From Lentinus brumalis (Eukaryota > Basidiomycota > Agaricomycetes > Polyporales > Polyporaceae): a DNA stretch of 64,000 bases. Under the pieces are notes generated by a model. It was given only the letters and a program-made list of their open reading frames with translations, ran no database searches and had not been told where the DNA came from. Shown in pieces: positions 27,086 to 64,000 of the stretch. Location of the stretch: positions 238,774-302,773 of the forward strand of contig MARA01000045.1 in the NCBI GenBank assembly GCA_001792895.1, written 5' to 3'. How positions within the stretch are numbered: the first letter of the stretch is position 1; each line of letters starts with the position of its first letter. Position numbers and translations under genes: made by a program.

Positions 27086-28058
27086 TTGGAAGCATACTAC
27101 GTCGTCTTAAACTCTCCTATCTCATCGCAAGACCAATTTAAATAGAAATCAAGGTTACGTGGGCCAGGATAGGTCATTTGAACAGCAGTCATGTAGTGGA
27201 AAGTTCGCGGACCGTCGTGGGTCGAAGTCGGGAGCAAGATGCACCAGCGCTCGATGCTTAAAGTACTGACATAAGGACCATCCATACAGCTTCGGCAAGA
27301 TTTCTCCTCCAACACCACAAGGCCGATACGAAATCCGACAGGTCCCAGGGCGTCAGATGGTATCATCGTCAGGCTCAAGCAGTGCGTGTAAGCTTCCGAG
27401 TCGACGACGGATGAGCTAGCAGTCTCCTCGGTAACAACATTACTCGAAGTACTCATCCTCCTTAAACCACTCGTCCCACAATGGAGCCGCCAATTCCAGC
27501 TCTCGGCGACGATCCAACCAGGACTTGAAAGTAGTCACAAATATGGTAGCCTGCGACCTTGCAATCCGGTCTGCGACTCCTAGCTCTATCCCAGCAAGGG
27601 TGACGTCTTTGATTGTGGGTATATACCTTAGGTCAGAGACCCGGACCCCATAGCACTCGGCTTTCGGGCTCAAGTAGTGAGATAGAGCATTGAACATGGC
27701 TGGGATAGAACGTACCCGAATACCATGCGTCCAACCGTTCAATCAAGTATCTCAGCTCTCTGCAATCCATCTTGGATTTCGGCACGATGTTGCAATTGAA
27801 CTGGACCTTTTCGCGGCTGAGACCACAAGGCCGGTGCGGCTGCGCACACCCGAAGTCGATGATCCATATCTTCCCATGATGGTCGCAAAGAACGTTTCGC
27901 TCTGCAATGTCGTTGTGCAGGACCCCAACTTGGTGGATAAGCGTGAACGCCACATATATCTGAGATCTGGCGTTCGCATCAGTACTAGTGGAAAAGCCCG
28001 GAACGATGATGAGAACCAGAACTCTGCCCAGTATCTCACTTGATATTCTGGCTGAATG

Positions 28059-29946
28059 TATGAGGGGCGCCAGCGGACAAAAAGACTCGACTTCAGTTCT
28101 GAGTTTGGACTTTGGATTTGGACTTCGGCAACTGAAGTGAACTTCAGAGTTGGACTTGACACGTGATCGGTTCAATTTCGGTTTGTGATTTCGGTTTCGC
28201 GCGGGCGTCTCAACTTCCGCTTTGGGCTTCGGTTTCGCCTCTCGACTTCACGACTCCCCATCGCGACTTCGCCCAGTGCGACACTGTCACTGTGCGACCC
28301 GGCTGATTGACGCCTCCGGCACGCACCTCCGGTAACTCCGCAACGCCTCGCAGCACTCTCACAAGCAGGAATTAGGTCTGCCACTGAGTACTTCAACTTG
28401 TTCAGTAAGTACTGTCCAGCGTCCGGCGGCGCCCTCCGCGGCAGAGACTTGGACTCGAAGGTGGACACCAAAGTTCTGCGAGTGAACGAGGAGGTCCTGA
28501 GAAGGAGTGCCAGAAAGCTAGCAGGATTCGAGGACGACAAGGTGTGCCTTACCATTCACTGGCCGCCTACTTACTAGTAGTCATATCCCCTCTACTATCA
28601 AGCTCGAGCCCATTCTGCTCCGAGACCGGAGCATATGTATAATTATCATCCGGTACCTCATGAGCTTGAGGACTACTGCATTTTGCCGAGCTTGAAAGAG
28701 TGCGTTAATTAGTGACGACATCACTCTGGGAAGCAACAAACGGTAAGACAAAAGTACCTCCGAGTCAGGCAGGCGTAGTCCCGACGTCGGGCACAAAGTC
28801 GGCCACAAGATTTCTGCTCCACCTGGACACCACGACTCATGACGACGGGCACGCTTGCCCGCCCCACTCTAGACCTGATCCTCACCATAGTAGGGCAGTC
28901 GGGCACAGCGCTGATTCAGTGATTCGGCCTGACAATGGCTTTGGGGTCCATCTGGTGTATGGCTTCCCCCTACTTCAAATGGAGACAGACTCGTGGATGG
29001 GCTGGTTCGAAGCATGCTACCGCTTCTGCACTTGATCGTGCACTAACGAGACCTTTCAACGATGGATAGTATGAGCCCCTACTCTGAAACCGCGAGTTGC
29101 TGGCCCGGTGTAAGTTGACAGATCCCGAGATCTCCAAGTCCAATTCACACAACTGCTTCCTTTACACGTTATCAGGCAAAGTCTGTAGTAACAGTCATGC
29201 AATTTTTCCAGTTCCAAGTGCAGACAAATGTCGTCGTCAGAGCTTGAGTTCCTTGTCGCGGCAATGCGCAAGTTTCATGCCTCCTGAGACCTTATGACTG
29301 CACAGATAAGCTGGAGCTCGTTGTGTCGCTTGACTACGGCTGAGTTCGCCATTTAAATACAGTCATATCTGGACATGGAGAAGTCCCAGGGCCCCGGGAG
29401 CCGGGACACCGTCAGTGCTGCCCACCGTGCCCGGTACTAGTACAAGCATACCTCGTATCCTCACCTTGTCTACGTTGCGTATGGGGTGATAGAGTCTCCG
29501 CACGTTCATGATTACAATGTGCGGAGACTTGCATCCGGGACCTTGATAGGCTGGCGGACTGTGACATCATACAGATGAGAAGGTAGTAACTTGTAAGTGA
29601 GAAGTACGTTGACTACTAGTATACGAGTCGTAATTGCCAGATATGGGTGAGCTGCGAGGCGTTGCGGAGTTACCAGAGGTGCGTGCTGGAGGCATCAATC
29701 AGCCGGGGCGCACAGTGACAGCGTCGCACTGGGCGAAGTCGCGATGGGGAGTCGTGAAGTCGAGAGGCAAAACCGAAACCCAAAGCGGAAGTTGAGACGC
29801 CCGCGCGAAACCGAAATCACAAACCGAAATTGAACCGATCACGTGTCAAGTCCAACTCTGAAGTTCACTTCAGTTGCCGAAGTCCAAATCCAAAGTCCAA
29901 ACTCAGAACTGAAGTCGAGTCTTTTTGTCCGCTGGCGCCCCTCATA
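28059..29946. mobile_element. Non-autonomous DNA transposon with 295-bp TIRs
   Basis: Both ends read TATGAGGGGCGCCAGCGGAC inward. The inverted repeats run 28059-28353 and 29652-29946 with few mismatches. A 6-bp direct repeat TGAATG flanks the element (28053-28058 and 29947-29952), and the uninterrupted K4 gene has TGAATG once at the same place, so borders and target duplication are certain. The 1.3 kb interior has no transposase frame. The TIRs contain many degenerate GACTTC/TTCGGT strings. Superfamily uncertain: a 6-bp duplication fits none of the commonest fungal groups exactly. Confidence 0.9.
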
Positions 29947-45059: not shown

Positions 45060-45415
45060 TGTGCGCACTGTCCCACAACCGTTCGCCTGTCGTGGCAGCC
45101 TTCAACCGCTAGCCCGCTCGTCCGTACTGTGTTATGACCGTTCGCCGGTCGGAGCAGCCTTCAACCGCTCGCCCGCTCGTCCGACTGTCGCACGACCGTT
45201 CCTCAGTCGGGGAGGCCTTCAACCGCTGGCCCGCTCGTCCGACTGTCGCACGACCATTCGCCGGTCTGGGCAGCCTTCAACCGCTCGCCCGCTCGTCCGA
45301 CTGTAGCACGACCGTTCGTCGGTCTGGGCAGCCTTCAACCGCTCGCCCGCAGCCTTCAACCGCTCTCCCGCTTGTCCGCGAATTGCCACGACCGTTCATC
45401 AGTCGGGACAGCCAT
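45060..45415. repeat. 58-bp minisatellite, about six copies
   Basis: The landmark CAGCCTTCAACCGCT recurs at 45096, 45155, 45213 (one change), 45271 and 45329, then a shortened copy, giving a 58-59 bp period. Each unit contains GACCGTTCGCCGGTC, an imperfect palindrome. Frames through it are not coding. Confidence 0.9.
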
Positions 45416-46539: not shown

Positions 46540-47738
46540 CTACATGCCTATCAGCAGGTCCCGGTCGCAAGTTCGGGCACCCGGCCTCATGCTAGCGAGA
46601 CCACCATGGCATCCAGGAGCGCACGTCGGCCCGCCTCTCCACCACATCAACGTATCTCTGACGCCCAAGTGAGGATCTCCGACCCGTCGTAACACAGGCC
46701 CCGACAGAGACAATGAATCCCCGAAGTGCCGTACGGCCACAGCACACCCAGTCGACCTGACTCCAGTACATGCCGCGCCTGGGGCCCACTGTTCCCATTC
46801 ATCCGACACCTCCCAACCGACCCGCCGCCACACGTCGAGACAAGCAGATGCCTGGCTAGACGTGGTCGCCGAGGATGTCACTGTCACCGGGTTGACAAGG
46901 GCACGATTGCTTTGCGTGAGGCGGGGATAAGCGCACGTGAACCAACGAGGCCCCACGAAGTTGAAGAGAGCCGAGTGCAGCTCACTGCCGAGCGGATACA
47001 ACGCGCTCGCATGCGTGCTGCGGACCAGGCTGATCACCCAGCCATTCTTGGCGAAGAAGCTGACCTCAGCGACGCCACGGTGCCCTGCTCGCCACGACAC
47101 GAACGATGCTGAGCGGGCTCGGCGCTCGACGTGGTCCTCGTCGTTTGGAGCCGGATGCGCACCGCGATCAAACGAAGCCTGGGGCCTGGTTATGCCAAGG
47201 GCAGACGCAGTCCCGGGTTGCACAGGGGGGTCCCCATTTCCGCGCTTGTGGACGGCATCTCCTTGAAGCCCATGTCTTCCAACAGAAATGAGCGCAGGTA
47301 GTGATAGCGGTGGGCGGGGGTGAAGAGATCGATCACGGGAGGAAGGCCGAACGTCGGAAAAAGCACATACAGCGCCGCGAGGCCGCCGATTACCGCCTCA
47401 CTCTCAATGAACATGTGAACCAAGCGGTTGTAGTCGCCTATGGTGTCCGGAAAAAGGTGCCTGACTCGATGATGCAAGGCCGCGCGTGCGGCCCTATCCC
47501 ACACACGGTTGGTGCGTCGGAGGTGGGCTAGATCGACGACGTCGAGACGATGGAGTATTGGCGGTGTGAGGTCGGCAGGCAGGACGGGAAAGAGACGTTC
47601 GCCGGGATATTCCACAAGCTCCATGAGGCAAGAACGAGGGGGAGTGGACGATAGGAAGTGTAGTTGCGGTGGGACTTTCATGCTCTTAAGCAGCCGGGCA
47701 ACGAGCCTAGACTCTCGCAGCGATCGCGCCGCTTCCAT
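46540..47738 (-). CDS. F-box-like protein, frame break at a C run
   Basis: The ATG at 47738 opens a frame with the F-box pattern at residues ~50-90 (LPADLTPPILHRLDVVDLAH, then LRRTNRVWD). A conserved hydrophobic helix and the FTPAHRYHYLRSFL block follow. The frame breaks at six G on the plus strand (47225-47230). One extra base carries it on through SALYPLGSELHSALFNFVGP and AVRHFGD to a stop at 46540, exactly 399 aa. The order of blocks matches the intact F-box gene at 38.5 kb. SCF substrate-recruitment is the family-level expectation only. Confidence 0.6.
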
Positions 47739-47927
47739 GGATGGGCGGGCGTAGGTACATTGGTCGGCGAGAGCGTCAAGAGCCCGGTGCCCCGGATCCT
47801 CGCCACGGCGCAGTCACATGAACCTCTGATAGAAGTGGATATAGGAAATACATGCGGAACAACGACGACGCTGGAAACGAGCCTCATGTGAGATCGATCG
47901 GGGCCGGGGCGATGCGGTGGATGGCGG

Positions 47928-48990
47928 TCATGGTGAACTCCATCCCCCCGCGATGCGGCGGACGGTGCTCTCGACGAGCACCACGGAACCTATGAGCACA
48001 GAGGTAAACGGGATTGTCTTCGCAAAGTTGCCCGCACGGATACCCTCTGAGGAGTTGTAGACACTCTCGAAGCTCTGGGTCGCCATGAGAGTGATGAGCG
48101 ACATGGAGATGACGTCTGCGCACTCACCGAAGAATGTTGCCCGTAACGCTTGTATGCCTCGAAGTACGGAGGCACAGGCTCTACAACAGGCCCGCGGCGG
48201 CGTGAGCCATCGAGACATGGAGCGGCACAACTGAGCGACTTACTATGAGGCACACAAGTGTGATAGATCCGACGCAACGCACTCTTGTCAACCGCACGAG
48301 GGAGCTCGATGCGACACACGAACTCGGGGTAGTGCAGGACATCCGCATGGAATGCCTGCCCGACAACCGTGCCCACGGTGCGAAGCCGTACAGGAATCTC
48401 CTGGTAGCCCAGGGTGCCGTCAGGCAGCCACGCACAGTTGTCGAGGGGGATCATCGCCAACGAGAACAACGCCTCTTGAGGAACATTGGTTTGAACGTAA
48501 CGGCGAATATTTCTTGCACGACACGAACGCCATGAGACTGAATGCGAGGAAGGTCGAAGTGAGAAAGCGACTCACCTCAGTGACCTAAGATCCACCCAGA
48601 TGTCGAACGCCAACGCCTGCGGATCAACGGCCGGCCCAGCACCTATCGCCACAGCATCGTGCTCCTCGCCCTCCCCAATGATGGTCTCCCCGTCCTCGGC
48701 GATGACAGACAGACCATCGTCGATGTCATCCACGATGCGAGCATCCTCTGAGTAAGCCACAGACACCACATCGTCGTCGTCGGCGTCGGCGTCGGCGTCG
48801 GCGTCGTCGTCGTCGTCGTCGTTGGTGTGCTTGTCGGCGGTGCCGACGCCGGGGGCGTTGTCGCCATGTGCGGGAGGGCCAGGATCGTCCGCAAGCTTCT
48901 CCTGTTTGATGGTAGGCTCCTCATCGACCGTGACGTGCCGGCGCGCGCGAGTGGCCCGGCCTGAGAGTGGGTCCACCAGTGGTATCCAGA
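47928..48990 (-). pseudogene. Acidic protein gene, 5' part cut off by the KDZ element
   Basis: Minus-strand exons ~48990-48576, 48512-48244, 48180-48128 and 48074-47928 join with correct phases. The first visible exon has no start codon and encodes a very acidic tract (poly-Asp/Ala from a GAC/GCC trinucleotide run at 48770-48825). It is followed by FDIWVDLRSL, then a folded region (SLAMIPLDNCAWLPDGTLGY, YPEFVCRIELPRAVDK) and a C-terminus with a possible membrane helix (TSVLIGSVVLV). I do not recognise the family. The frame runs upstream into the transposon's terminal repeat, where the protein-like character ends, so the insertion removed the 5' end and promoter. Splice sites and reading frame are otherwise undamaged, pointing to a recent event. 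Confidence 0.65.
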
Positions 48991-50598
48991 CTTGTAGTAC
49001 AAACCCCCACAGGTATGGTACAATGGTTGTGCTGTACGTGGGGATATTCTGTACAAGACCCTTGTACAAGAGCCATAGGATTGTACAACCAACCACTTGT
49101 AGTACAAGTAAGGCTTGTATTACAAGTGGTCTACTGCAAAGGGCAGCTAAATGCGGACTTGTACAAAGGATTGTAACCCGCATAGAGCAGCCTATACAGA
49201 GCTTGTACAAGGCTTGTAATAGATGTGATCAGCAGATATAGATCTGATAGATCTGGTGATGGGAAATCTAAGTACCAAGATCCTGGCTCTTGTAACCAAT
49301 TGTAACATGGTCTGGGGGCTATATGGAGGCAGGCTCTGTAAAAGTGATTGTAACCATCCGTGGGTGTCTATATTTGGACAGGAAAAGCTGGAGCTTGTAC
49401 ATGGGGTCCAGACCTTGTAATGCAGATTGTAACTGGCCGTAGTGATCCCGATTCGGACAGGAAAAGCTGGAGCTTGTACATGGGGTCCAGACCTTGTAAT
49501 GCAGATTGTAACCGGCCGTAGTGATCCCGATTCGGACAGGAAAAGCTGGAGCTTGTACATGGGGTCCAGACCTTGTAATGCAGATTGTAACCGGCCGTAG
49601 CGATCCCGATTCGGACAGGAAAAGCTGGAGCTTGTACATGGGGTCCAGACCTTGTAATGCAGATTGTAACTGGCCGTAGCGATCCCGATTCGGACAGGAA
49701 AAGCTGGAGCTTGTACATGGGGTCCAGACCTTGTAATGCAGATTGTAACCGGCCGTAGCGATCCCGATTCGGACAGGAAAAGCTGGAGCTTGTACATGGG
49801 GTCCAGACCTTGTAATGCAGATTGTAACCGGCCGTAGTGATCCCGATTCGGACAGGAAAAGCTGGAGCTTGTACATGGGGTCCAGACCTTGTAATGCAGA
49901 TTGTAACTGGCCGTAGCGATCCCGATTCGGACAGAGAAAGCTGGAGCTTGTACATGGGGTCCAGACCTTGTAATGCAGATTGTAACCGGCCGTAGCGATC
50001 CCGATTCGGACAGGAAAAGCTGGAGCTTGTACATGGGGTCCAGACCTTGTAATGCAGATTGTAACCGGCCGTAGCGATCCCGATTCAGACAGGAAAAGCT
50101 GGAGCTTGTCATAGCGATCCCGATTCGGACAGGAAACGCTATCTCAATTATACCATCATCATTGTCAGTATTCCAGAACATCTGCACAGGCTGGGTGCAA
50201 AATACAGCCAGAGGTACTGAGGTTTGGAGAGCCATCACAACTTCCAGCTGCAAAGATCTAATTGTGTGCCAGTTTCTAGGACACTAGTAGCCGCCTCGTT
50301 GCTGCGAGCACCATCCTGATATGTTAGGCTATCCGCAAAAATAGTGTTTGAGCCCATAGTGATAGCCCAAGACATGTCATTGATCGTCACTTACTGACCG
50401 CTTCAGTTTGCCGCCCATGATGCCCTTGGGAGATTACTACTTAGCTTCGCTTTCGGACTCTACAATTGGTTTTTTACTCAGGCTGAGTCTTAGCAGTTGT
50501 ACAACACTGTTGATAGCCGCACTTAGGGAATAAGTAATTTGAACAAGTCGGCGCTTTTGGACGACTTATGGACATGCCTTACTGAGCTTACTTATCTG
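48985..50598 (+). repeat. Left terminal inverted repeat of the KDZ element
   Basis: The outer ~390 bases are packed with TTGTA and TACAA words, including CTTGTAGTACAAG and CTTGTATTACAAG at 49094-49131. These are followed by nine full and one broken 79-bp satellite units (49382-50130) and a ~470-bp unique stretch. The unique stretch matches the complement of 62555-63040 almost perfectly. Confidence 0.9.
49382..50130 (+). repeat. 79-bp satellite array, left end
   Basis: Unit starts fall at 49382, 49461, 49540, 49619, 49698, 49777, 49856, 49935 and 50014, an exact 79-bp period; the tenth (50093) is truncated. Each unit holds three TTGTA words at offsets 14, 34 and 46. Units differ only at C/T positions such as AACTGG/AACCGG and GTAGTG/GTAGCG. 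Confidence 0.95.
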
Positions 50599-50661
50599 AC
50601 TGTTGCACATTACAGATGAGAGTCAAGATCATGACGATACACATGTGATCCTATATACAGC

Positions 50662-53600
50662 CTATTCATCCCTATCTGAGCCAGCCTCAGAGTCTGAGGA
50701 GTCTGAGGCTTCGACGCCAAAGGCCACATTCAACTCCTCGCCATCCAACACAGCCATGCCATTGCGACTGCGTGGCCGCACCTTACGAGCGTACTTCTCG
50801 TACGGGCGGATCCAAGGTGGTAGAGGCCCTATGCTGGCAAGCTCGTGCACCCAAAACGATGCGGTGCGGATTGCGAGCTTGTCAAACACAGCTGCCTGCT
50901 TCCGGGCATAGATCCGAAGGCCCCGTTTAAGACGTGCAGGCACGTCTGCCCGACGCCCGGCCTGATTTCGCCACCATCGAGACTTCCACTGGAAGTACTC
51001 GATAATACGTCGCATCTCTTCCAATAGGAGAGCTTGTTCCTCATCCCACCGGTCGGCCCGCGCCTTACACCGCGCCCATTCTGCGCGCATAGTCTGCAGG
51101 AACTCCTCATTGTCCGCAGGATTCATGCTGTTAGCAGCAGATTCCCGTGCGGACAACGATGTGAGCCAAATCCAGCTTGGCGTGTAGCGACCCTCGCTTG
51201 CGATGACTTCATCGTCCTCTCTCCGAGGCCCGCGGAGATCTGCGTCAAGGAGCGGCCGGTAAGTCGTAGTCCAGGAACCGTCCGGATCGAGAGCCACCAT
51301 TGCAGCGCGCGCCGCTCGGTACCTCTCCACCGCACGTTGCTGCTTGTCTTTGAAGCGCGTATACAAGCCTTGTTGCCTGGTCATGGAGCGCTGGCCAAGG
51401 CCGAGGACGTTCATCCTTGAGAACTCGGATACCGCAGCCAGAACACGACGGATACGCCGAATCTCCGCGAGCGCATCGGATAACTGGGCCAGACGTAGTC
51501 GCTGTTCCTTCTTCCGCAAGCCCGAGAGAGTCTCGTTGGATGCCAAAGTTGCCGGAAGGGCGGATGGGAGCCACAGGCGGACATCTTCAGCTTTGATTGC
51601 AGGACGCGGACCCTCTTGATCGGAACGGGTGCGACCGGCGGCCGCACGTAGTTCTGCAACCATAGGCATGTGGATGTCCTGGAGCTCGCGCCAGAGATCA
51701 ATCCGGCGCGTCAAGACGTTGCGCTTTTCTTGCTGCGCCGCGAGCTCTGACAGACTGCGCCCCGTGCTCGCTCGAAGGCGGAGGGCACGCCTGCCAACCC
51801 GTGCCAGTATGAGTCAGCTGTAGAGTGAGATAAGAGGAAACGCGTACTGCTTCTCTTCGAGCTCCAGTCCAACCTGCAGGAACACTCCTGGAGTTGTGTC
51901 GTGGGGAGGCAGCGTCCCGGCCGCGGCTTCCGCTGCTTCTTCCTGGTTGAGCTGGAGCTTGACCGCGACGAATGTGATGGCTGTAAAGCGAGGTCAACGC
52001 AAGCTCGTGGAAGTCCACAGTCGCTCTCAGCTTACACGAGGTGGGTTCGTCATACGGGTCCGGTTTGGTGGGGTCTGCATTCCATGCGCTGAGCATTTCC
52101 TCCCATCCCTTGACAGTATCCTCTGGGATGTTTGCAGCGAACTCTTCATAGACCTTTCGCTGTTTTACGCGCATCTCTTTGGCTTCCTGCAGCGCACGTA
52201 GGAGAACTAAGCCTGATGATAGTGTCAATCATGATGTACGCAGGTCAACGCAGATAAGACTTACCGAACGAGATCGTCTTCTGCCAATTCCAGGCGCCCC
52301 AGTGGTCGTTGTAGACCTCATGCCGCATGCCGAGGCCCATCTCCCGCGTACTGAGTGCCAGAGGGTTCATGTGTGACCAATGAGCTTCAATCCATTCGCC
52401 GTAAGTGCGTCCGACGTGCTTGAGAAAGTTGAGAGACCACCGCGAGTGCGGCTCCCCTCCGTGAACACGGTAGTGCTTCTTCGGAATGGCAAAGCGGATG
52501 TCTTCGACCTTTGTTCTATCTATCCTCATCTCGGGAGGAAAGTTCTCGTCCATCCGCTTGAAGAACTTCTTGCACCATTGGCAGGCGATGTCGTAGGAGA
52601 AGAGCAGTGCCGCCAGGACGAGGCCCAAGACCGTCGAAAAAACGAGGTAGTCCATATTGGCATACCTGAAGATGTTGTATCCTTGGTCAGCCCGAACACT
52701 AGGAAGCATAGAAAGCTCACATACCCTTCGCCGAGCTGGAGATCTCCCGCTCCGTTCTTCCGGACAAGGGCATGGCGAGCGCACAAGACAGCGCCGATAC
52801 CCGAAGCAATGTACCCCTCGCGCCGAAGATTGGCCTTCAAGATAGCGTTGTGCTCTGCAGAGCAGGTGTTTTCCTACGACGATCAACGTCAGCTGACATC
52901 AGACGGGCTTTGCGTGCGTTGTCATACCTCCTTTTGGCCTTTGCAGGCGGCAACATGCGCTTGATACGCTTTCTCTTCGACGTAATAGGCCCACCCCGGG
53001 GCGAGCTCGATGTCCTCGATCCCTCGGTCCTTGCACCGAGCGCGGAAGTTGGCATCTATCATGAGATACAGCGTGTACAACCACCTGGTATTCGAATCAT
53101 GCGTGAGATCGACGCGCTGATAGAAAGCAAGAAATCTGAACTCACTTCGACTCTGCCGGCGCATTCTCCCATCCCTCTGGCAGATTTTTGCCAGGGTGCG
53201 GGCAGGCTGGACACTCAACAACGAGTTCGCCAGGTCCGGTTGCCTGCGCGCCAGCTGGATCGTGCGCTCGCGCGGATCTCTTCAGCATCTGGAGATGACG
53301 CCAGATACGAACGGCATGAGAGAGTTGCTTGTATCGATTCTAGAAAGTATCATTAGGGAACTCCGTGAGGACGACGGATGATCTTTGAAAATGAAGCTCA
53401 CCGGGACATCGGCACCTCCTGAGTTGTCGGTGATCCGCTCCAGGGTCTTCCAGTAGTCGTGCAGGTTGGTCTTGGCCTGGAAATTGAGCTCCTGGAACGT
53501 CTTGAGGAGCCGAAATGTGAAGACCGTTTCCGGGCGGTCCATGCTGGCCGGAAACCAGCCCATGCGCATGAGCTGACGCCAATCTGGCGTGAGTTCACCC

Positions 53601-54485
53601 GAAGCAGGGTCTATGCACTTGCAGAACTTGACCCGGTGCGTATAGATTCCCGTAGAGTCGCAGATGACGATCCGGCGGCCGACCAGAGAAGGGTGAGGGC
53701 ATGTTCCACGGTCATGGCCAACTTGCACTTTCAAGCCGAGCTTTTCGAGCGAGCTGTTGCAGAATTTATCTCCATCCCACTCCTGCTCCGTCGCTTGTGA
53801 GTTTCCAGAAGCTGAATGAATCGGGATTTACTCACTTCGACCCGGTGCAACAGGTTCTCGGCATGCTTCTCAAGTATGCACGACTTGCAGCGGAGAGGGC
53901 GTCGGAAGCAGTCGCGACATCGTATAGTTGCAGGGCGGACTCCGCATAGATCGCAGAGAACGAAGCCCTCTTCAATAGGCTCCTCGCAGCCTTCAAAGGC
54001 GAGCAGTTCATCGAGGAAGTCTTGCCTGGCGGGGAGCCACTTCCGAAGACGATTCTAAAGAAGACTTCAGTACTCGGATGAGAAAATGTAGAAGAACGGT
54101 CACGCACTACTGCACGTAAATCAGAACGCGGTCTCTTGGCCTGAGTGGTGGGACTGGTGTCGCCAGTCGATCCCTCGAGGTCTTCAGCTTCCGCGACAGG
54201 CAATACAGCCAAGATCGAATTCACTGTGTTGTCCGACGAGGCATCTCCTGCATAGGCGGGTGCTTGCTCGCGCGGGTCTGGAATGACCTGCATACGCTCG
54301 GTTTTCTGTCGTCTGCGCCCGGAAGAGCTTTCTGAGAAGTCGACATGTCGCACTGTTATAGGTTGACTCGAGCCAGCCTCGGTGCTACTTCCACTGGGCC
54401 CGTCGAAGACTGTATCTATCACATCAAACTTGGCCTTCTTGCCTTTGCGTGGACCCGATGTCGCTTTGCGTTTTTCCGACCTCAT
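50662..54485 (-). CDS. CxC2 + KDZ transposase, apparently intact
   Basis: Ten minus-strand exons (54485-54108, 54054-53836, 53782-53402, 53339-53146, 53084-52928, 52873-52725, 52665-52265, 52212-52036, 51980-51848, 51790-50662) join in perfect phase to 1105 aa. The N-terminal 125 residues are basic and disordered. Residues ~158-285 form the CxC2 cysteine cluster (CDLCG, CRDCFRRPLRCKSC, HRVE, GH with C, ICDSTG). The KDZ domain follows: RHLQMLKRSARAHDP, LPEGWENAP, LYLMIDANFR, GYANMDYLVFST, FSYDIACQW (D518), FLKHVGRT, HWSHMNPLALSTREMG and NDHWGAWNW. The C-terminal third is helical with LPSALP and SWIWL. These are the diagnostic blocks of Kyakuja-Dileera-Zisupton transposases, RNase H-type enzymes that cut element ends. 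No lesion was seen. Confidence 0.93.
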
Positions 54486-54799
54486 GCTCGATGTAGTTGG
54501 GCCGACCGACGACGCAGCCGGTAGACGTCCGTGGCGGCCAGGGAAAGACCAATGATGGCAATAAGCGCGGATCCAACTGCGTACGAGTTTGCGCATCCGT
54601 ACTGTAATGCATGCTATATCTCACTCAAATCAGCCTTATATGTTTCACAGCCTGACTACGAGGACGCACATCTTGAAGACTACCATGAGCCTCAGCCTGT
54701 CTCAGATCCTGACCCGGTGTTGTTCATCCTGCATCCTCCAAATGCCGACCTCGCAGCCCGTCCACGACACACGGTGCACTACCCCGTACGGCCCCGACG

Positions 54800-55408
54800 A
54801 TGGCGCCTGCACATCGCTCTGCACGCCTACAAGATGCCGTGCATGAGCTCCCCAAAGACAATTTGCATGGCCAAATCCTGCGAAAACCGCGGTACCAGCC
54901 CGCACGCGTCGCCCAGGCCGACTGCTCCGCCCGTAACGGTACGCACACGAGTTCAACCTGCCATAACTGACTTCCATGCTACAGGCGAGCCAGACGATGT
55001 TCGTCTCAGAGAAATGACGCGGTTTCCGGTGAGTTATGCTCCCTTGTCCATTCGGATTTCAAGCAGTCTGATGTCGAGGCCGAAGAAGGCTCGGAAGTCT
55101 TCGTGCCCCCATCTCCGTCGACGGCGCCCCTCTCCTCTCTCGCCTCGCGCTGTAGCGAGTTCACTGCGTGCGAGGGCCGACCTCGAGCACGATGGCATCC
55201 AGCCAGTTCACTGTCCCCGAAGCCGGGACGAGCATCGAGTATCTGTTCTGGATTGGACTATTCACCCCAAGTAGTTTCGCATTGCATGTATAGATCCGAC
55301 CACAATTTATCTGTCTGGCATTCATCTTATACATGTCCGCTCTACAATACTTGTGCATCGTGCGCAGCTAGCTGTAGGTGGACTTTGGTGGCAGCGATGA
55401 CATACTGA
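54800..55408 (+). CDS. Small unknown protein of the KDZ element
   Basis: ATG at 54800; exons 54800-54938, 54985-55028 and 55067-55408 splice in phase. It begins MAPAHRSARLQDAVHELPKD, then has an acidic stretch (SDVEAEEGSEVFVPP) and a Ser/Pro-rich part. The C-terminal half is doubtful: two other frames between 55140 and 55300 look equally protein-like, so a further intron or frame change is possible. It is transcribed away from the transposase gene, with ~315 bases between the two start codons, so the two may share a promoter region. No family recognised. Confidence 0.4.
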
Positions 55409-56143
55409 ACATTAGAGCTTGCAGTAGTGATACCCCTCCACACCTCATGCAAGGCGTCCGAGGAGAGACCTCGAGCAGGCATGCTCACCAGAACATCCTG
55501 TATCCACTCCAACAACTCCTCACCCCTGTCGACCTGCTCCTCAGCCTCAGACACCCAGGATTCCATCTCTTCCCCCAGTAACGCACGCTCGTATCGAACA
55601 CAGAGCTGTTTCCAGAACGCGTTGAGTTCTCGCGATATCCCCAGTAGTTCAGTGCCTCGTTGAGCCTGTCGAGGACTCGAATGAGTTCATATTCGGCGGT
55701 CGCAGGGATAGGAATAGGCCAAGCTAGGGCATTCGTCCTGTCGCACCTCAACCAATTGCATCATGACTGACTGCACTTTGACTCACCGGAACGAAGGGTC
55801 TATACCATCGCCCTCGAATCCAACATGCTCCTGCGCGGCGGGCGCGGTTGCGTCTGAGCCAGAATCCTCGTGGGTCTCGGACGGCCCCGCTTGAAGTAGT
55901 TGCTTGTGCTTTTGTCCAACCGGCCTGCTTCCCTTGCCCGCCCTACTCAATTTGCGCAGGGCCTTCACCGAGATCCCGAGCCTTTCTGCTCTGGCGGGAG
56001 GTTAGTGTTAGACACAAGTGCAGCTTGGGAGCAAGGACTTACTCCGACTTCTTCTTCAGGTAGTGCCGGTGATTCCTCTCCTGCTTCAGAAGCTTGCTCC
56101 GCAGAGTCTCCTCGTCGGTTATGTCTTGGACAGCCCGAGGCAT
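55342..56143 (-). CDS. Unknown helical protein of the KDZ element
   Basis: Minus-strand exons 56143-56043, 55990-55787 and 55746-55342 give 236 aa if one base is added at CCCC 55639-55642. It starts MPRAVQDITDEETLRSKLLK, a basic helical region, followed by RLGISVKALRKLSRAG, which could be a helix-turn-helix-like basic motif (weak). The C-terminal half is a predicted helical bundle (YELIRVLDRLNEALNYW, LNAFWKQLCVRYERALLGEE). It ends convergently with the small plus-strand gene. It could be a DNA-binding accessory of transposition, by position only. The single frame break at a C run is of the same type as elsewhere in the window. Confidence 0.55.
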
Positions 56144-56725
56144 GATATGTAGACGAGGGATGCACAAGTAGGAGTGACTGCACGTTGGGCTGAGTAGAGG
56201 ATCAAGGTGAGCATGGAGGCGCTAGTAGTCCGCGGCAATTGAAGAGGGTTGGCCGCGTCGCTCCGCAGGACTCTATTATGCAACATACCTCATGCGTACA
56301 TCGTCAGTAACACAGGAGATCCTCTGAAATGTGTATAGCCAAATTTCAGACGACCTTACATCCCATGTTGACTACATGTTCTAATACACAACATGACTCT
56401 ACGATACTGTGTCTTACTTTCAGCGACAGCGTCTTAACCTTCGAGTAAGACGCCGTCGCATGTCCTCGCATGGATTATGCCATCGTCACCGGCTCACATG
56501 TCTATGAAACCTCTCGGCGATATATGTTCGTACGACCAACTCGACTACAACAGTAAACTGGTAAGACGCATATCAGTCTATAAGACACCGTAGCCATGTT
56601 ACTCACCGAATCTTACTTTTGGCGACAGCGTCTTACCCTCCCAGTAAGACACATGTTTGCATGCATCAAAGTCTTGTCCGACGACGAACTCAATTACGAA
56701 AGTAGGTAGTACGACGGTACACATA
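56144..56725. other. Interior spacer with degenerate direct repeats
   Basis: Two related stretches share CTTACTTT-GCGACAGCGTCTTA (56420 and 56616) and ATATCAGTCTA (56568 and 56723), ~155-195 bases apart. The second repeat overlaps the stop of the dioxygenase gene, so the spacer appears to hold a decayed duplicate of that gene's 3' end. Confidence 0.4.
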
Positions 56726-58772
56726 TCAGTCTACAAATTCGTCCCATTTGCTAAGTAAAGACATGCCCAACCTCCATCGCTCCTGGCCGGTAATGTCGAA
56801 CTTGTTACCCGCAGCCTCGAAGTTCTTCTGGCTTTGAAAGCCGCACGCCGCCCAGCGAAGGAGTCCACCTGCGGTATACTGCGTGATTGACAGGCGAGTT
56901 TCGCCTGCTTGTGTCAGGATAGTATTTGAATGGGGAACGGTCGCGGAGGGTAGAAAGATCGTGGCGCCGGGTGGGAACTCGATCACCTTACGCAAAGACC
57001 ACAGGACCAGATGTCCGCTCTGCTTAGGGTTGTACCTCCCAAGCGCAGTGACCGCGCACAACCCCCATGGAACGTTCTGCTGGTCAACATGGCGATGAGT
57101 GACGGTGCTCGGGCCGAGGTTGAACGTTGCTGCGGCAAAGACATTGCCCTTGAAGGGCGGCTTGAGCTCAGGATCGCGCTCGCACAATTCGCTGAGCACG
57201 TCGCCGTAGGAATCGTAGAGCCTGGGTGCCCAGACCTGGAGCGCGCCTTCGAGCTTGTAAATGACCCGTCCATTGCAACAAACTCGCCACTCACCACTGG
57301 CAAAGTTCGCGATGCGGCGAATGGCCGTGTTGTCCAGAGCGTCTTGGATCACAAGGCGGTTGTGCGCGGAATGGGCGAAGTTCGACGGAGACTTCGGGCC
57401 GGTGAGCATGCGAAAGGTAGGCCACGAGCACGCGCACTCACCGGCTGTCCGCCTCCATAGGTGATTCCAGTAGTGACCGACCAGTAATCGCCGCGGCGGT
57501 GGGAGAAGTCGCAGTGTGCAGAGTGGTAGTTCCGCCGCATGTCCTCAAGCGCCCCGGTCGCTTCCTCAGTCACCGTGCTCCAAGACGCGTCGTTGGGTTG
57601 ACCGGCAAGCACGACGATGATTGTGCCATCAGGAGCGAGGAGGACACGACATATCCTTTGGATCAAGAGGTTGGGCGACGCATTCGACGACTCGAGTATG
57701 TACGAAACACTCACTTCCCATCCCACTCCTCATAGTCGAAACCCAGAAGATCCACCAGTTGTTGCGCCGTCCACGGCGTCCGATCGTCTTCGGTCAACGA
57801 GAGCACCGGTCCTGTGAAGCCTTGCCCGACCACAGGTACATAGTCGAGGCCAACTGCCGGTGCTGCGATGTTCTGCACGGACTCGGTGCGTGATGCTTGA
57901 GCCCCTTGACGATGCTTTGCCGCGGAGGATTTAAGAGGTCGCCTCGTGAGGGGCGTGCGGATGCTCAGATCTGGGGGCACTGCGGAAGCACCACTGTCCA
58001 CAGATGCGGCAGGCTGGGCGACGCGCTTCCGCTGGCGGCGGGCCTTGTTGCGCCCTCGCTGATGAAACTGCTCCTTGGTAGCGCCGTCGTCCTGAGTACC
58101 GGACGAGCGCAAGGGTGGTTGGGGATAGGGTGCCAGTGCATTGCGCGATGCAGCAGCGGACGTGCTAGCCTTGGCTCCACGCTGCCTCGGCTTGGAGCGC
58201 GTCTCTGTGGCGAGCGCGTGCGAAGGCTGCGGGTCCGCGGAGCTCAGTGAGCCTGACAGGCATGGCGCAGAAGCAGTAACCGCTGGAAGGGGGTCGGGGT
58301 GCACTGCGGGTTGTGCCTGAGCGGTGGCAGGCATCTCTAACAACGCCCGGCTTGAAGGCGATGGTGGTTGCGCCACAGGCGGTGGGCCCGACCCATGGGG
58401 GTCGTCTTGTGCGAATATTGCAGCGAGGAGATCACGTCCAAAGTCGAACGTAGCAGGGGCGTGCAGGGGAGGGCCGAGTAGGGCTCCCCATGGGGAGAAG
58501 ATGCTCTTCTGGCGTGTCTGAAATCGAGAGGCGGCGACAGTTATCAGGTACTTGTTGCGCGGAGCCTGTGAATAAGTACTCACAACGCGAAAGGAGTCCA
58601 GATATTCGGGCCCTAAAGCGCAATAAAGCATGATCAGTACACAGTGCTGAGCTATGCCAAGCACCCAGTCGACCACCTATTGCGCGCAACGTCTGGGATC
58701 CAACAGTCGAGTCCACGCTCGGCGCACGCAGAGAGGTCGAAGGGGATGTAATAGAGAGCACTCACCAGACAT
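56726..58772 (-). CDS. TET/JBP-family 2-oxoglutarate/Fe(II) dioxygenase, apparently intact
   Basis: Minus-strand exons 58772-58766, 58612-58584, 58517-57715, 57655-57442 and 57391-56726 join to 572 aa with correct phases. The N-terminal ~240 residues are a Pro/Ser/Arg-rich disordered region; a short VSGP...WTAQQLVDLLGFDYEEW-type segment precedes the enzyme. The double-stranded beta-helix core contains H452-V-D454 (in THRHVDQQNVPWG), the second iron histidine H505 (VPHSN) and the 2-oxoglutarate arginine R517 (GETRLSITQY), with the family blocks CAVTALG, GGHLVLW-like GHLVLWSL and FPPGATIFLPSA. All iron and cosubstrate ligands are present. The family oxidises 5-methylcytosine or thymine in DNA. 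Its position between the element's inverted repeats marks it as transposon cargo. The first exon is only 7 nt and the start is therefore less certain than the core. Confidence 0.9.
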
Positions 58773-59617
58773 ACAGGCGTAAAGTGAGTTGAACCGGGTG
58801 GCGGACGTGGTGGTGGTTGTATACTAGTACACGGCGCGACAGGCGCGTTTTGAGATATGAACGTCCGGTCACGGGCACGGGATCTGTGACCACACAGACG
58901 CCGTACACCGGTAGGCTGCCGCATATGCTCTGAAGCAGCAAGGTCCAGATCTAGACACGCGAAGTGTGCTTGAAGGAGTAGAGTAGAGAAGAGTGAATTG
59001 GGCGCCAGGTACAGATACATACAGGCACTATTAGCTACTCTTATCGAGCCCATACATCCGTGACGCAGGAGACCGGGAACTCATGGTTAGATGTCTTGTG
59101 TATCCGAGTACAAGCCAACCCGGGAGCGGTCGTAGCGGTGGTCGCGGTGGGGATGGGAGCGACATCCGTGCTTTGAGAACTGGCTCAGCACGTCGCGCGG
59201 GAGCTAGAGAGGAGCCGGAGAATAGGAGGCAGTCCCGTCCGATCAATAGCGATGCAAGATCGGTCCTCCTTAGGCACGTGTGAACGGGCACTGTCCGGAG
59301 GCTGGCGATTAAGTAGCTGGACGCAAGGCTGAAGCAAGAACGACATGTTAGAGGAACGAATGCCAGAGGAAGAGCGATAATAGTTACCAGACCCGAGAAC
59401 GTGGAAGGACAGTTGCAGCAGGAAGGCTGCACAGCGGGAGAGGTGGTGGTGCCCGATCATCCTCTCGGACTGGCTCGGTGCAGATCGGGTGCGCCGCCGC
59501 TGGGTTGTAACACAATGCGCCCACGATTTTTTGCAGCCTCTGGCATCCGACATCTGTCCTCACCTGCATCGTTTCAGTCTCCCCTCTGTACACGGTCACC
59601 AAACTCGTACCTTCGCT
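58773..59617. promoter_or_regulatory. Divergent promoter region, dioxygenase / companion gene
   Basis: This is an 845-bp gap between two start codons pointing away from each other. No convincing TATA box or repeat was seen, and frames within it lack motifs. It should contain both promoters. Confidence 0.5.
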
Positions 59618-62432
59618 ATGGGCCGCCCTTGGACAGCTGAACTCGAACTCGCAATGCTTGAAGAGCGGTGGCCAGGGTTCACTGCGGCGCGTACCCAGGA
59701 CCTCACGACGACGTTCTTGACGAGCGTGTATCAAGACTACTTCTCCGCGCTATACCCCGAAGTCGTAGTACCAGAGGGTGCAGACGAGAAGTCGATCTTC
59801 TTCACCACTCTGAAGCCGGGGCCCGATGGCGAGGAGCAGCAGATCTCTGTACATGGGCGCAAAAAGGTCAGTCTCGCTGTGGTTCGTAGAGCATTCGCCT
59901 GACTCACCTGGTTCGAATACTTAGCAAATCTATTGGTGGTTCTGGAATCGCGCGAACAGTCTTGACCTGAAGACGCGAAACAAGAGCAAGAAAAAGGACA
60001 GCGGCCTCGACTTCAACGCAGACCCGCAGAAGGCTGTCAAGAGACAAGCCTATCAGGCTTACGTCGACATCTACGGCGAGCGCGTCCTACCAATCATCAA
60101 GCCAGAGTTCGACGAGTACTTGAAGAAGTTCGTTGCAGCGGAGGAGGGCGAGAAGCCGAAGGGATGGTTGGCATTCATGGGGGAGCGGGCAAAAGTGATG
60201 TTGGAGAATGAGAGCGAGGAGGTGAAGGCGGAGGTCGAAGCGGCGCGCATCAAAGGTCCCAAGGACGACGGCTTAGACATGTTCACCGACCCCGCGCCTG
60301 GCGTAACGGTGCAGGATCAACAGAAGCGGCAAGGATCATCCAGGAGTGAGTTCAACGATCATGCAGACTCGAATTCCTCTTACCTGTCTCTAGCCGCATC
60401 GATGCGTTACCCGAGAAGTTCGCAAAGCTCGCGAAGAACCTTGAGCAACAGCTCGGCTGGAAGGTGTCGGTCAGTGCTGGAGGGCCACGTCCAGACACCG
60501 GCGAGTTCGTGTCTTACTCGTGAGCACAACAGTCTCTGCGCCTGAAATGTCTTGACGGCTGACAATACGTGTTAGCTATCATTCAGGACATACAGCGAAT
60601 CTGGGGCTCACGTTGACGGATGTGTGTACCAAATGGCCAGCTTTCAAAGCAGACTTCAACAACTTCGTGGTCAATTGCTATCGTGAGTAATATGATACAG
60701 CTGTTCGAGCTAGTGGGCGATGACGCTAATCCGAAACTGTTACATGCAGCACCGGACGCAGCAAAGAAATTGCATGCCGCTTACCTGGGTGGCGAAGCCG
60801 ATCCTGACTCGAGCACCACCCCATCCGAGTCGTCACGGTCCACACCCGCTCCTCCACCTCTTCCCAATCCCCAGCCAACGTTCTCCGTCCAACTTCCCCC
60901 TACGACGCCCTCAGATCCCCCTTCTTCTGCGTCGAGACAGTCGACTGAGTCTGCCGCAGGTCCGTCGAAGAATACCGCAGCCACCGCGCCGGAATCAAGC
61001 CCTACCAGCGAGTCGGAGGGTGGTGCGCCCAATACAACCACGTCGTCGAGCACGTCGTCCCGCAGTATATCAGGAGCGATGGATTGGGAGAAGCAGAGGT
61101 TGGCTACGATGAAGAGGAACCACGAGAGGATGGTGGCGGAGGGGTTGATCTCGGCCGCGCAGGCTCTGCAAAAGCCAGCGAAGAAACCTCGCGCGCCCCG
61201 TGCACCGAAGACTACGGCTTCTATTCCTCCCACGTCTGTCACGACACGCACACGCTCTGCCGCCGCCGCCGCCGCCGCCGCCTCTGCTGCCACACCCACT
61301 CAGACCGAGGCTGTCACCCAAGCCTTCGTGCCAAAGACTCATCTGCTACGCCTGGCGAGTTGAGCAATGCGGCGGCCTCAGGACTCGCAAGTTCCGTACA
61401 CAGCATACATCCCACGCACGGCACTTCATCTGGTGCTGAGCAGCCTCCCACATCTGTGTCGCCGACTTCGACAGCGACAACCTCTCCCCTGCCAAGCGCA
61501 ACTCCTTCGGCGGCTTCAGGTGCAGCTTTGCCCGCCCCGGCGGATGCTCAGGACGTTCAAGAAGTCGAGACGCAATCCACCGCAGCCTCCTCCGCCTCCG
61601 GTCAGGTCCATGTACAAGACCCCCTTGCAGGCTCTTCCGCTTCGCTCCAGCCTGCGTCCATCTCAGACACCATGTCCTCCCCGGTATAGCGACCTCATCC
61701 TCTGTCGTCACCCCTCTGGACGGCTCTGCTCTCCTTCCATCGACAGACACCGAGAACGTGTTGATTGTGCTTGATCAGGAGGCCCCGGACTGGGTCTTCA
61801 GCGCGGTCGAGTTCTTCGAGTACCATCTCGAGGCTGGAGGGAAGGGCTGGCACCGTCTGGTGCATAGTTGGCAGAAGTTTGAGATGCATATGGGGTACCC
61901 GGAGTCTCGGGTGAGTACTATCGATCTTTCATGCTCTGTAGCGGCCATGGTCATGACTCAAGCAATTCTACAGAAGAAGCAGTTTCACCTCCCGACCGCT
62001 CTCCGTCCAGATGAGATTGCTCAATGGATGAAGGAGGGTCGCGATTACGAGAAGCTCCCAGAGCTCGTCGACCATGTTGCCTTTTCTGCGCAATGGAAGA
62101 CATGGTGGGCCTCCCTGCAACCGGCTACCCGACGCGTCGATGGCTCCCCAACTTTGCTCAACCGCATCGCGCCTACAGATAAGAGCGAGTGGGAGATTAT
62201 CTGGCGCGGAGGGCCATGTGGGCTCTTCCTCGTCATCATGGGGCTTGCATGGTGGCTCTACGCTGCTTCTGAGAGTGATAGCAGCCTCCAAGAGGTTCAG
62301 GATGCTATAGATGACGTGCACTGGGCCCTCTGTACCGCTATGGAGGCTCACGGGCTGAATGCGAAGCGTGCTGCCTCGGAGAACTCGGACGTCGAGAGTT
62401 GCACTTCCGTGAAGCGCGCTCGCATTGATTGA
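59618..62432 (+). CDS. Large companion protein of the KDZ element, function unknown
   Basis: Exons 59618-59866, 59925-60345, 60394-60519, 60576-60682, 60750-61910 and 61974-62432 give 841 aa if single bases are added at 60290-60293 (CCCC), 61331-61335 (CCAAA) and 61679-61682 (CCCC); all splice phases then agree. The N-terminus (GRPWTAELELAMLEERWPGF, later QIYWWFWNR) is a Trp-rich helical region that looks like a Myb/trihelix-type fold (weak). It is followed by RIIQDRIDALPEKFAKLAKN, a conserved-looking YHSGHTANLGLTLTD block, and a long Ser/Thr/Pro/Ala-rich linker. The C-terminal ~220-residue domain has APDWVFSAVEFFEYHLE and WEIIWRGGPCGLFLVIMGLA. I recognise no enzyme. The three frame breaks make it either a decayed gene or one affected by base-calling errors. 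Confidence 0.6.
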
Positions 62433-62554
62433 GTTCTCCTTCGCTGTCACGGTCATTTTCCTGTACAGTACAATGATGCCTGTACTTATGTCGAACTATC
62501 AATACTCAGTACTTTGTTCTGAGAATTATGATGAACCGTTGTCAACTCAGACAC

Positions 62555-64000
62555 CAGATAAGTAAGCTCAGTAAGGCATGTCCATAAGTCGTCCAAAAGC
62601 GCCGAATTGTTCAAATTACTTATTCCCTAAGTGCGGCTATCAACAGTGTTGTACAACTGCTAAGACTCAGCCTGAGTAAAAAACCAATTGTAGAGTCCGA
62701 AAGCGAAGCTAAGTAGTAATCTCCCAAGGGCATCATGGGCGGCAAACTGAAGCGCAGTCAGTAAGTGACGATCAATGACATGTCTTGGCTATCACTATGG
62801 GCTCAAACACTATTTTTGCGGATAGCCTAACATATCAGGATGGTGCTCGCAGCAACGAGGCGGCTACTAGTGTCCTAGAAACTGGCACACAATTAGATCT
62901 TTGCAGCTGGAAGTTGTGATGGCTCTCCAAACCTCAGTACCTCTGGCTGTATTTTGCACCCAGCCTGTGCAGATGTTCTGGAATACTGACAATGATGATG
63001 GTATAATTGAGATAGCGTTTCCTGTCCGAATCGGGATCGCTATGACAAGCTCCAGCTTTTCCTGTCTGAATCGGGATCGCTACGGCCGGTTACAATCTGC
63101 ATTACAAGGTCTGGACCCCATGTACAAGCTCCAGCTTTTCCTGTCCGAATCGGATCGCTACGGCCGGTTACAATCTGCATTACAAGGTCTGGACCCCATG
63201 TACAAGCTCCAGCTTTTCCTGTCCGAATCGGGATCGCTACGGCCAGTTACAATCTGCATTACAAGGTCTGGACCCCATGTACAAGCTCCAGCTTTTCCTG
63301 TCCGAATCGGGATCGCTACGGCCAGTTACAATCTGCATTACAAGGTCTGGACCCCATGTACAAGCTCCAGCTTTCCTGTCCGAATCGGGATCGCTACGGC
63401 CAGTTACAATCTGCATTACAAGGTCTGGACCCCATGTACAAGCTCCAGCTTTCTCTGTCCGAATCGGGATCGCTACGGCCAGTTACAATCTGCATTACAA
63501 GGTCTGGACCCCATGTACAAGCTCCAGCTTTTCCTGTCCGAATCGGGATCGCTACGGCCAGTTACAATCTGCATTACAAGGTCTGGACCCCATGTACAAG
63601 CTCCAGCTTTTCCTGTCCGAATCGGGATCGCTACGGCCAGTTACAATCTGCATTACAAGGTCTGGACCCCATGTACAAGCTCCAGCTTTTCCTGTCCGAA
63701 TCGGGATCGCTACGGCCAGTTACAATCTGCATTACAAGGTCTGGACCCCATGTACAAGCTCCAGCTTTCCTGTCCGAATCGGGATCACTACGGCCGGTTA
63801 CAATCTGCATTACAAGGTCTGGACCCCATGTACAAGCTCCAGCTTTCCTGTCCGAATCGGGATCACTACGGCCAGTTACAATCTGCATTACAAGGTCTGG
63901 ACCCCATGTACAAGCTCCAGCTTTTCCTGTCCAAATATAGACACCCACGGATGGTTACAATCACTTTTACAGAGCCTGCCCCATATAGCCCCCAGACCAT
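62555..64000 (-). repeat. Right terminal inverted repeat of the KDZ element (incomplete)
   Basis: It is the complement of 49307-50598, with a unique stretch 62555-63040 followed by about eleven 79-bp units (63060-63930) against nine on the left. The outermost ~320 bases are cut off by the window edge. Confidence 0.92.

Follow-up and report, generated by a model that had tools for sequence, protein, structure and literature searches.

A KDZ transposon of Lentinus brumalis with a TET/JBP-type gene and motif arrays in its ends

Why do some fungal DNA transposons carry enzymes that erase DNA methylation? The question is raised by the window analysed here, the terminal 64 kb of contig MARA01000045.1 (C77) of the basidiomycete Lentinus brumalis, in which a KDZ-type DNA transposon of ~15 kb has a TET/JBP-type dioxygenase gene in the same element. 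The element is real and complete. It is of a known kind, TET-bearing KDZ transposons having been characterised by Kojima 2025 (PMC12730594; this and the other papers cited are drawn on in part), with new variant features. According to the same paper, the function of methylation erasers in fungal transposons has not been experimentally validated. The answer that we favour, and regard as rather probable, is that the transposon would move by cut-and-paste, leaving 7-bp target duplications; that its transposase likely binds arrays of a TTGTA motif in the long inverted ends; and that the dioxygenase likely oxidises 5-methylcytosine (5mC) on the element, which would prevent its silencing.

Ends, target duplications and copies

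A preliminary description of this DNA had placed its genes between long inverted repeats with satellite-bearing ends. This is borne out by inverted arms with blocks of 367 and 200 nt that are complementary throughout (100%) and by 79-bp arrays in facing orientation, although the left boundary moves from 48985 to 48974. The genome searched comprises 53.4 Mb in 136 contigs (labelled C1, C13, C59, C62, C77, C79, C118, C122, C125 etc.), and a search with the left end and inner arm located further copies on C59, C62, C118 and C125. All 8 fetched ends of the window family start with CACCAGTGGTATCC. The tip pattern has 14 matches genome-wide and its reversed control none, so the ends are not a product of chance. 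At least 13 of the 14 terminate an element with a KDZ match; the match at C1:2800624 was examined over 201 bases only. When the flanks of 14 ends were compared in every one of the 91 combinations, six pairs agreed exactly over 7 bp; no other match reached 5 bp, and the ends C79a and C1 were left unpaired. The target-site duplication is 7 bp long in all six pairs, and in the window family it accompanies 5'-CA..TG-3' termini.

The window pair, GTGGGTC, consists of the left flank in the window and the right flank on C118, where the right end lies at C118:14955. As this heptamer is common to both outer flanks, the simplest reading, going by sequence, is that C77 and C118 carry the ends of a single insertion that was split in assembly. 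The matching repeat that the preliminary description expected beyond position 64000 is thereby located, with the same duplication. The features in the window are as follows (positions of the window; aa, amino acids).

48967-48973, no strand: left 7-bp target-site duplication GTGGGTC, its partner copy being on contig C118 beyond the right tip
48974-49371, plus strand: left terminal tip, starting with CACCAGTGGTATCC; TTGTA/TACAA 53 per kb; CpG observed/expected ratio 0.21
49372-50109, plus strand: left array, 79-bp unit in 9.3 copies, three TTGTA motifs in each unit
50110-50598, plus strand: left inverted arm, inner part; blocks 100% complementary to the right arm; TTGTA 6 per kb
50662-54485, minus strand: transposase gene (KDZ, with a CxC2 zinc cluster); 1103 aa free of stops, in 10 predicted exons
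55342-56221, minus strand: small gene in the middle, of uncertain exon structure; has a weak relative in a TET-less sister element
56726-58772, minus strand: dioxygenase gene of TET/JBP type (HVDxxN.....C); 572 aa in 5 predicted exons
59618-62432, plus strand: third (companion) gene; 6 exons and 846 aa on C62; interrupted frame in the window
62555-63044, minus strand: right inverted arm, inner part, complementary to the left arm
63045-63936, minus strand: right array, a tandem repeat, 79-bp unit in 11.3 copies
63937-64000, minus strand: right tip, first 64 bases, up to the contig end; the remaining ~334 bp are estimated from the tip length at other ends

The window ends where its contig ends, and the outer right tip is therefore off the contig. 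Outside the element, the window has a 58-bp minisatellite of 4.9 copies (45067-45371) and, adjoining the insertion, an F-box-like frame on the minus strand (47190-47813; E 1.8e-4, below cut-off). The 1-kb left flank (47974-48973) matched only itself and a 72% paralogue at C77:85843 in the genome.

Judged by the 7-bp duplications, the six assembled TET-bearing copies come down to four insertions. Aligned blocks are 98-100% alike in five of the six; the cores of C77 and C62 differ by 23 substitutions over 12.9 kb (19 away from gaps). C59 is an older copy as judged by its sequence, being 94.6% identical to C77 over 11.2 kb. Four insertions with blocks so closely alike argue that the element moved recently, in keeping with the mobility first proposed for it. 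An uninserted allele of the C59 insertion was not found, the joined flanks matching only C59 itself in the genome. The copy on C62 is peculiar in that its own two flanks are mismatched and each pairs with one end on C125, so that C62 would join the flanks of two insertions, through either recombination or assembly collapse. Between C62:488931-505656 and C125:1-42398 the comparison is of two C125 insertions 18.4 kb apart with a C62 stretch that has their outer flanks around one element; the recombination would then be ectopic and have removed the 18.4 kb.

The genes of the element

The transposase gene has a full KDZ domain (PF18758) at 191.7 bits and a CxC2 domain at 115 bits, the Pfam cut-offs being 26.6 and 27. 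Both the earlier reading of a 10-exon CxC2+KDZ gene free of lesions and its placement in KDZ by profile search hold.

The five-exon dioxygenase model likewise retains the ligands ascribed to it. In a 46-row alignment the HxD and the distal H are invariant (H101, D103 and H154), and R166 is present in at least 90% of rows. In a larger set of relatives HxD is found in 119/119, a Cys at +11 in 118/119 and an Asn at +5 in 116/119. The active-site residues are conserved across Agaricomycetes, and the nearest named relatives are from Trametes, then from other Agaricomycetes, which by itself points to a probably polypore-like host. Membership of Kojima's PE type is contradicted by HxD, where that type has HxE. 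The AG-type TETs of Kyakuja retain Asp337 and Gly/Ser331, in place of which Cys and Asn stand here (PMC12730594). Cys at +11 corresponds to Asp337 in CcTet, Thr1393 in hTet2 and Ser238 in NgTet1, and at +5 the Asn is the same as in hTet2, where it reportedly stabilises 5mC while blocking N6-methyladenine (6mA) (PMC11040006). CcTet of Coprinopsis cinerea (7vpn, 7w5p, 8jkk; PMC11040006), considered transposon-derived by Kojima (PMC12730594), resembles the window enzyme in its TET fold and HxD...H, but identity is 20% over 168 structurally aligned residues. Because Asn/Cys replace Gly331/Asp337, an hTet2-like contact with 5mC is predicted.

Identification by profile is less direct. The window exon scores 19.6 bits with Pfam Tet_JBP, below the gathering score of 34.9; of the 46 clade members, 27 have a match with E no higher than 1. 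The profile is thus a poor test for this clade and the fold the stronger one: the predicted model has the TET-type double-stranded beta-helix. In the Protein Data Bank no TET was matched by sequence, either by the window exon or by the 46-row profile; the fold comparison did match. Assignment of 56726-58772 to Tet/JBP accordingly stands by fold and falls short of the Pfam cut-off, and together with the KDZ domain it supports the original description of a KDZ transposon with a TET/JBP-type gene. The dioxygenase frame is open in the window, on C62 and in one C125 copy, and broken on C118, in the other C125 copy and on C59. As C118 and the window belong to the same insertion, a sequence error in one or the other is likely.

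To the right of the dioxygenase, the frames at 59.4-61.4 and 61.4-62.4 kb are parts of one gene, because both parts lie within a single 562-aa frame in the C13 relative; C62 has a 605-aa frame, and the gene model has 846 aa in six exons. The three companions of the preliminary description are therefore two genes. The third gene is open on C62 and interrupted in the window, which, with the merged frames, rules out five separate genes, all intact. Between the window and C62 there are length differences at 11 places from 55.0 to 61.7 kb (10 of one base, one of two) and a tangled stretch at 62.5 kb. Six of the 11 places are also covered by the C125 and C118 pieces; five are peculiar to the window and one is common to C118. 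That five of the six set the window apart from C62, C125 and C118 suggests unpolished contig-end sequence at 55000-62800, with small length differences clustering toward the contig end. The third gene found nothing at E <= 1e-3 in two protein-database searches (7987 and 109 candidates) and nothing above cut-off in Pfam, its relatives being found only within this genome; its product possibly binds DNA or serves in assembly. Support for the middle gene (about 55.3-56.2 kb) is weak and comes from a match of 24% identity (E 1e-5) to the sister element.

Relatives with and without TET

Two groups of TET genes were compared across the genome. AG-like TETs are the 20 among 29 Tet_JBP rows that score over cut-off, Gly and Asp having been read only at the eight loci L001-L008, five of which are near-identical. 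N-type TETs are 39 places merged from 54 rows by their match to the window TET, not by the N/C letters at each place; four weak places were dropped (C56:363575, C2:101265, C64:10504 and C93:1265398), and 11 other dropped rows are fragments of kept places. Near-identical copies count separately, so the 39 include the window family's six, and linkage to KDZ is given as lower bounds. At least 16/20 AG-like and at least 24/39 N-type TETs (at least 18/33 without the six) lie within 10 kb of a KDZ domain, where chance would give about 3.4%. The third gene lies within 12 kb of 16/39 N-type TETs (11/33 without the window family) and of 1/20 AG-like ones. Near-identical AG-like TETs are found within ~10 kb of contig ends at C59:535318, C64:470731, C115:6084, C16:30019 and C62:510526, at least four of the five being 3 kb from a KDZ domain; these loci may make up a TET-KDZ family of subtelomeric position.

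A tree of 19 transposase fragments of ~120 aa each (L068, with a stop, and L069, out of frame, were left out of 21) places the six AG-linked transposases in one clade (99/100), apart from that of the window. The window transposase is sister to that of C79 (100/100; 112/127 residues identical), and the two join six N-linked ones at 84/82. Two other N-linked transposases fall elsewhere, with a long-branch warning. TET type thus appears to track transposase type broadly, not perfectly.

The C79 sister is a 13-kb element whose transposase is 88% identical to the window's over the compared fragment; the third gene has relatives in it at 47%, the middle gene a weak one. A tblastn search of the 4.65 kb that separate its transposase from its third gene found no TET, and no place on C79 or C13 is among the genome matches to the window TET. 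Its tip matches the window tip over 31 bp at 90%, and it has the 7-bp duplication GCTCGCA and a 93-bp array of its own. Another TET-less sister, on C13, has the duplication TGTCCTC. The C13 relative spans 20 kb (C13:1000722-1020938), with 12 kb between transposase and third gene.

Both families share a motif. TTGTA/TACAA occurs per kb 53 times in the window tip, 37 in the arrays and 6 in the inner arm, against 1.3-1.4 in flank and interior; in the TET-less sister the values are 35 in the tips, 53 in the arrays and 1.5-2.4 in the interior. Inside of the tips, the ends of the two families have only a 13-bp match in common. As the motif was kept while the surrounding sequence changed, TTGTA is the mark of a putative binding site, for which the transposase would be the likeliest binder. 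The arrays might instead be ordinary satellites produced by replication slippage, with no binding role. Their copy number does vary between arms and copies, as slippage would have it, and another N-type family, on C122, manages without them; but the single-copy tips are similarly dense in TTGTA, and two unrelated repeat units, of 79 and 93 bp, have the motif in common, so that we consider slippage alone decidedly unlikely.

The C122 family has inverted arms of 316-318 nt at 94% (C122:15265-15580 and 28003-28320; L083 and L084). In the 10.5 kb read, in which its outer tips are undefined, there is no tandem array and there are at most 4 TTGTA/TACAA per 500 bp. In the stretches read, these arms do not support TTGTA arrays as a general KDZ feature. 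The arms carry, by eye, a repeated CGAATAG-like motif in place of TTGTA.

Methylation and the role of the dioxygenase

Signs of cytosine methylation were looked for in the substitutions. In the array units, counted ungapped (123 units, 26 distinct, gapped units missing; they derive from related arms, which makes p values indicative), 7/10 CpG columns vary by transitions compared with 5/69 other columns, and the result is unchanged using the majority base at column 63 or distinct units only. Between copies, with gap-adjacent sites skipped, CpG transitions are enriched ~4-fold (7/2009 versus 8/10869; 139/2041 versus 163/9363). The host genome has DNA_methylase matches at two places. The pattern fits cytosine methylation and is not proof of it or of TET acting at the ends. 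The motif arrays suggest a place on the element at which eraser and transposase could meet.

Several observations weigh against a self-protecting eraser. Between C77 and C59, CpG transversions are raised ~2-fold as well (81/2041 versus 167/9363). The CpG observed/expected ratio of the tips is 0.30 in the TET-less sister and 0.21 in the window, that of the arrays 0.53 and 0.76-0.79; low-GC control windows are also CpG-poor (median 0.39, n=23), and the element genes have no depletion (0.98-1.04). Since sister and controls show it too, tip depletion does not single out methylated ends, and it is no longer taken to prove that the ends are methylated. With the full-length TET model, Pfam gives no match to Tet_JBP at E <= 1, and in the fold list of the window exon GGCX (8.1), which is unrelated, scores too close to TET2 (8.4) to be set apart from it. 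The absence of arrays on C122, in the stretches read, belongs here too, as do the three assembled copies, of six, in which TET is broken. Finally, the like tips and 7-bp duplications of the TET-less C79 and C13 elements, together with TTGTA arrays, imply from their sequence that TET is dispensable for this architecture and for moving.

The last point is also a ground for regarding the dioxygenase as captured cargo that hitch-hikes without benefit while the transposase alone moves the element: the TET-less sister moved as well, TET is broken in 3/6 assembled copies, and its orientation is that of the transposase in the window family and the opposite in several relatives, as if separately inserted or inverted. 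Such a passenger would hardly be expected to lie beside KDZ in at least 24 of 39 cases (18 of 33 without the family) where chance gives about 3%, or to keep its active-site residues across Agaricomycetes, and we hold this to be unlikely. That the enzyme has a different base as its substrate (6mA or thymine), or oxidises 5mC across the genome in a non-targeted way, and so affects the host and not the element's own ends, is somewhat unlikely. CMD1 makes a different product within the same superfamily, JBP chemistry and non-targeted oxidation in Agaricomycotina are discussed by Kojima 2025 (PMC12730594), and the Cys at +11 is unlike CcTet, hTet2 and NgTet1; the Asn at +5, however, is that of hTet2 (PMC11040006). 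It is improbable, too, that the window insertion is a dead relic. The third-gene frame is interrupted, perhaps TET as well, and one length difference is common to C118, the other contig of the same insertion, where TET is broken; yet the window has open frames for transposase and TET, C62 has one for the third gene, and many of the length differences occur at a single contig end only. We therefore retain the protective eraser as the preferred reading, in which the substrate would be 5mC rather than 6mA and the target the element itself.

TET-bearing Kyakuja transposons of Agaricomycetes are reportedly treated in Iyer et al. 2014. The system is not as little described as first thought, TET-bearing KDZ transposons being characterised in PMC12730594, but no description was found of ends with motif arrays, of a TET of N/C type or of the third gene linked to it; this is provisional, the supplements of Kojima 2025 and Iyer 2014 lying outside the texts covered. 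The main text of Kojima 2025 has neither 'satellite' nor 'tandem repeat'. Kyakuja is similar in its KDZ transposase, a TET/JBP gene in one element, 7-bp duplications and 5'-CA..TG-3' termini, but two L. bicolor families are reported without terminal inverted repeats (TIRs), where here there are ~1.6-kb arms with tandem arrays (PMC12730594). On these sequence characters, the arms disagreeing, we do not file the element as Kyakuja. Zisupton and Cryptococcus KDZ1-3 share the KDZ core and TIRs, and KDZ1-3 a CxC zinc cluster, with movement seen; duplications are 8 bp in Zisupton and KDZ1 and 4-8 bp in KDZ2 and KDZ3, and KDZ1-3 have TIRs of 139-241 bp and CxC1, with no TET mentioned in the text drawn on (PMC12810828). 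Duplication length is at odds with an assignment as Zisupton, 8 bp being expected and 7 bp found in 6/6 pairs. The plant transposons En/Spm and Ac/Ds have subterminal arrays of short transposase-binding motifs, and their transposases are unrelated to KDZ. In the present case the satellites that hold the motif have units of 79 or 93 bp, and the element includes an oxidase gene.

More tentatively, and with some doubt, the element may carry a TET of a further kind so far undescribed among transposons: an eraser specific for 5mC that has the active-site contact of animal TETs, is inherited along with a transposase clade of its own and a third protein dedicated to it, and works at arrays of transposase-binding motifs. 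If so, one genome would hold two rival eraser systems, a dual 5mC/6mA system of AG type and a 5mC-only system of N/C type, and the TET-less sister element would be a natural control. The genome itself makes the question posed at the outset amenable to testing. It holds TET-bearing copies that are nearly identical and have defined ends, a sister element that has like tips and lacks TET, and two kinds of TET that are predicted, from single residues, to differ in their use of 5mC and 6mA.

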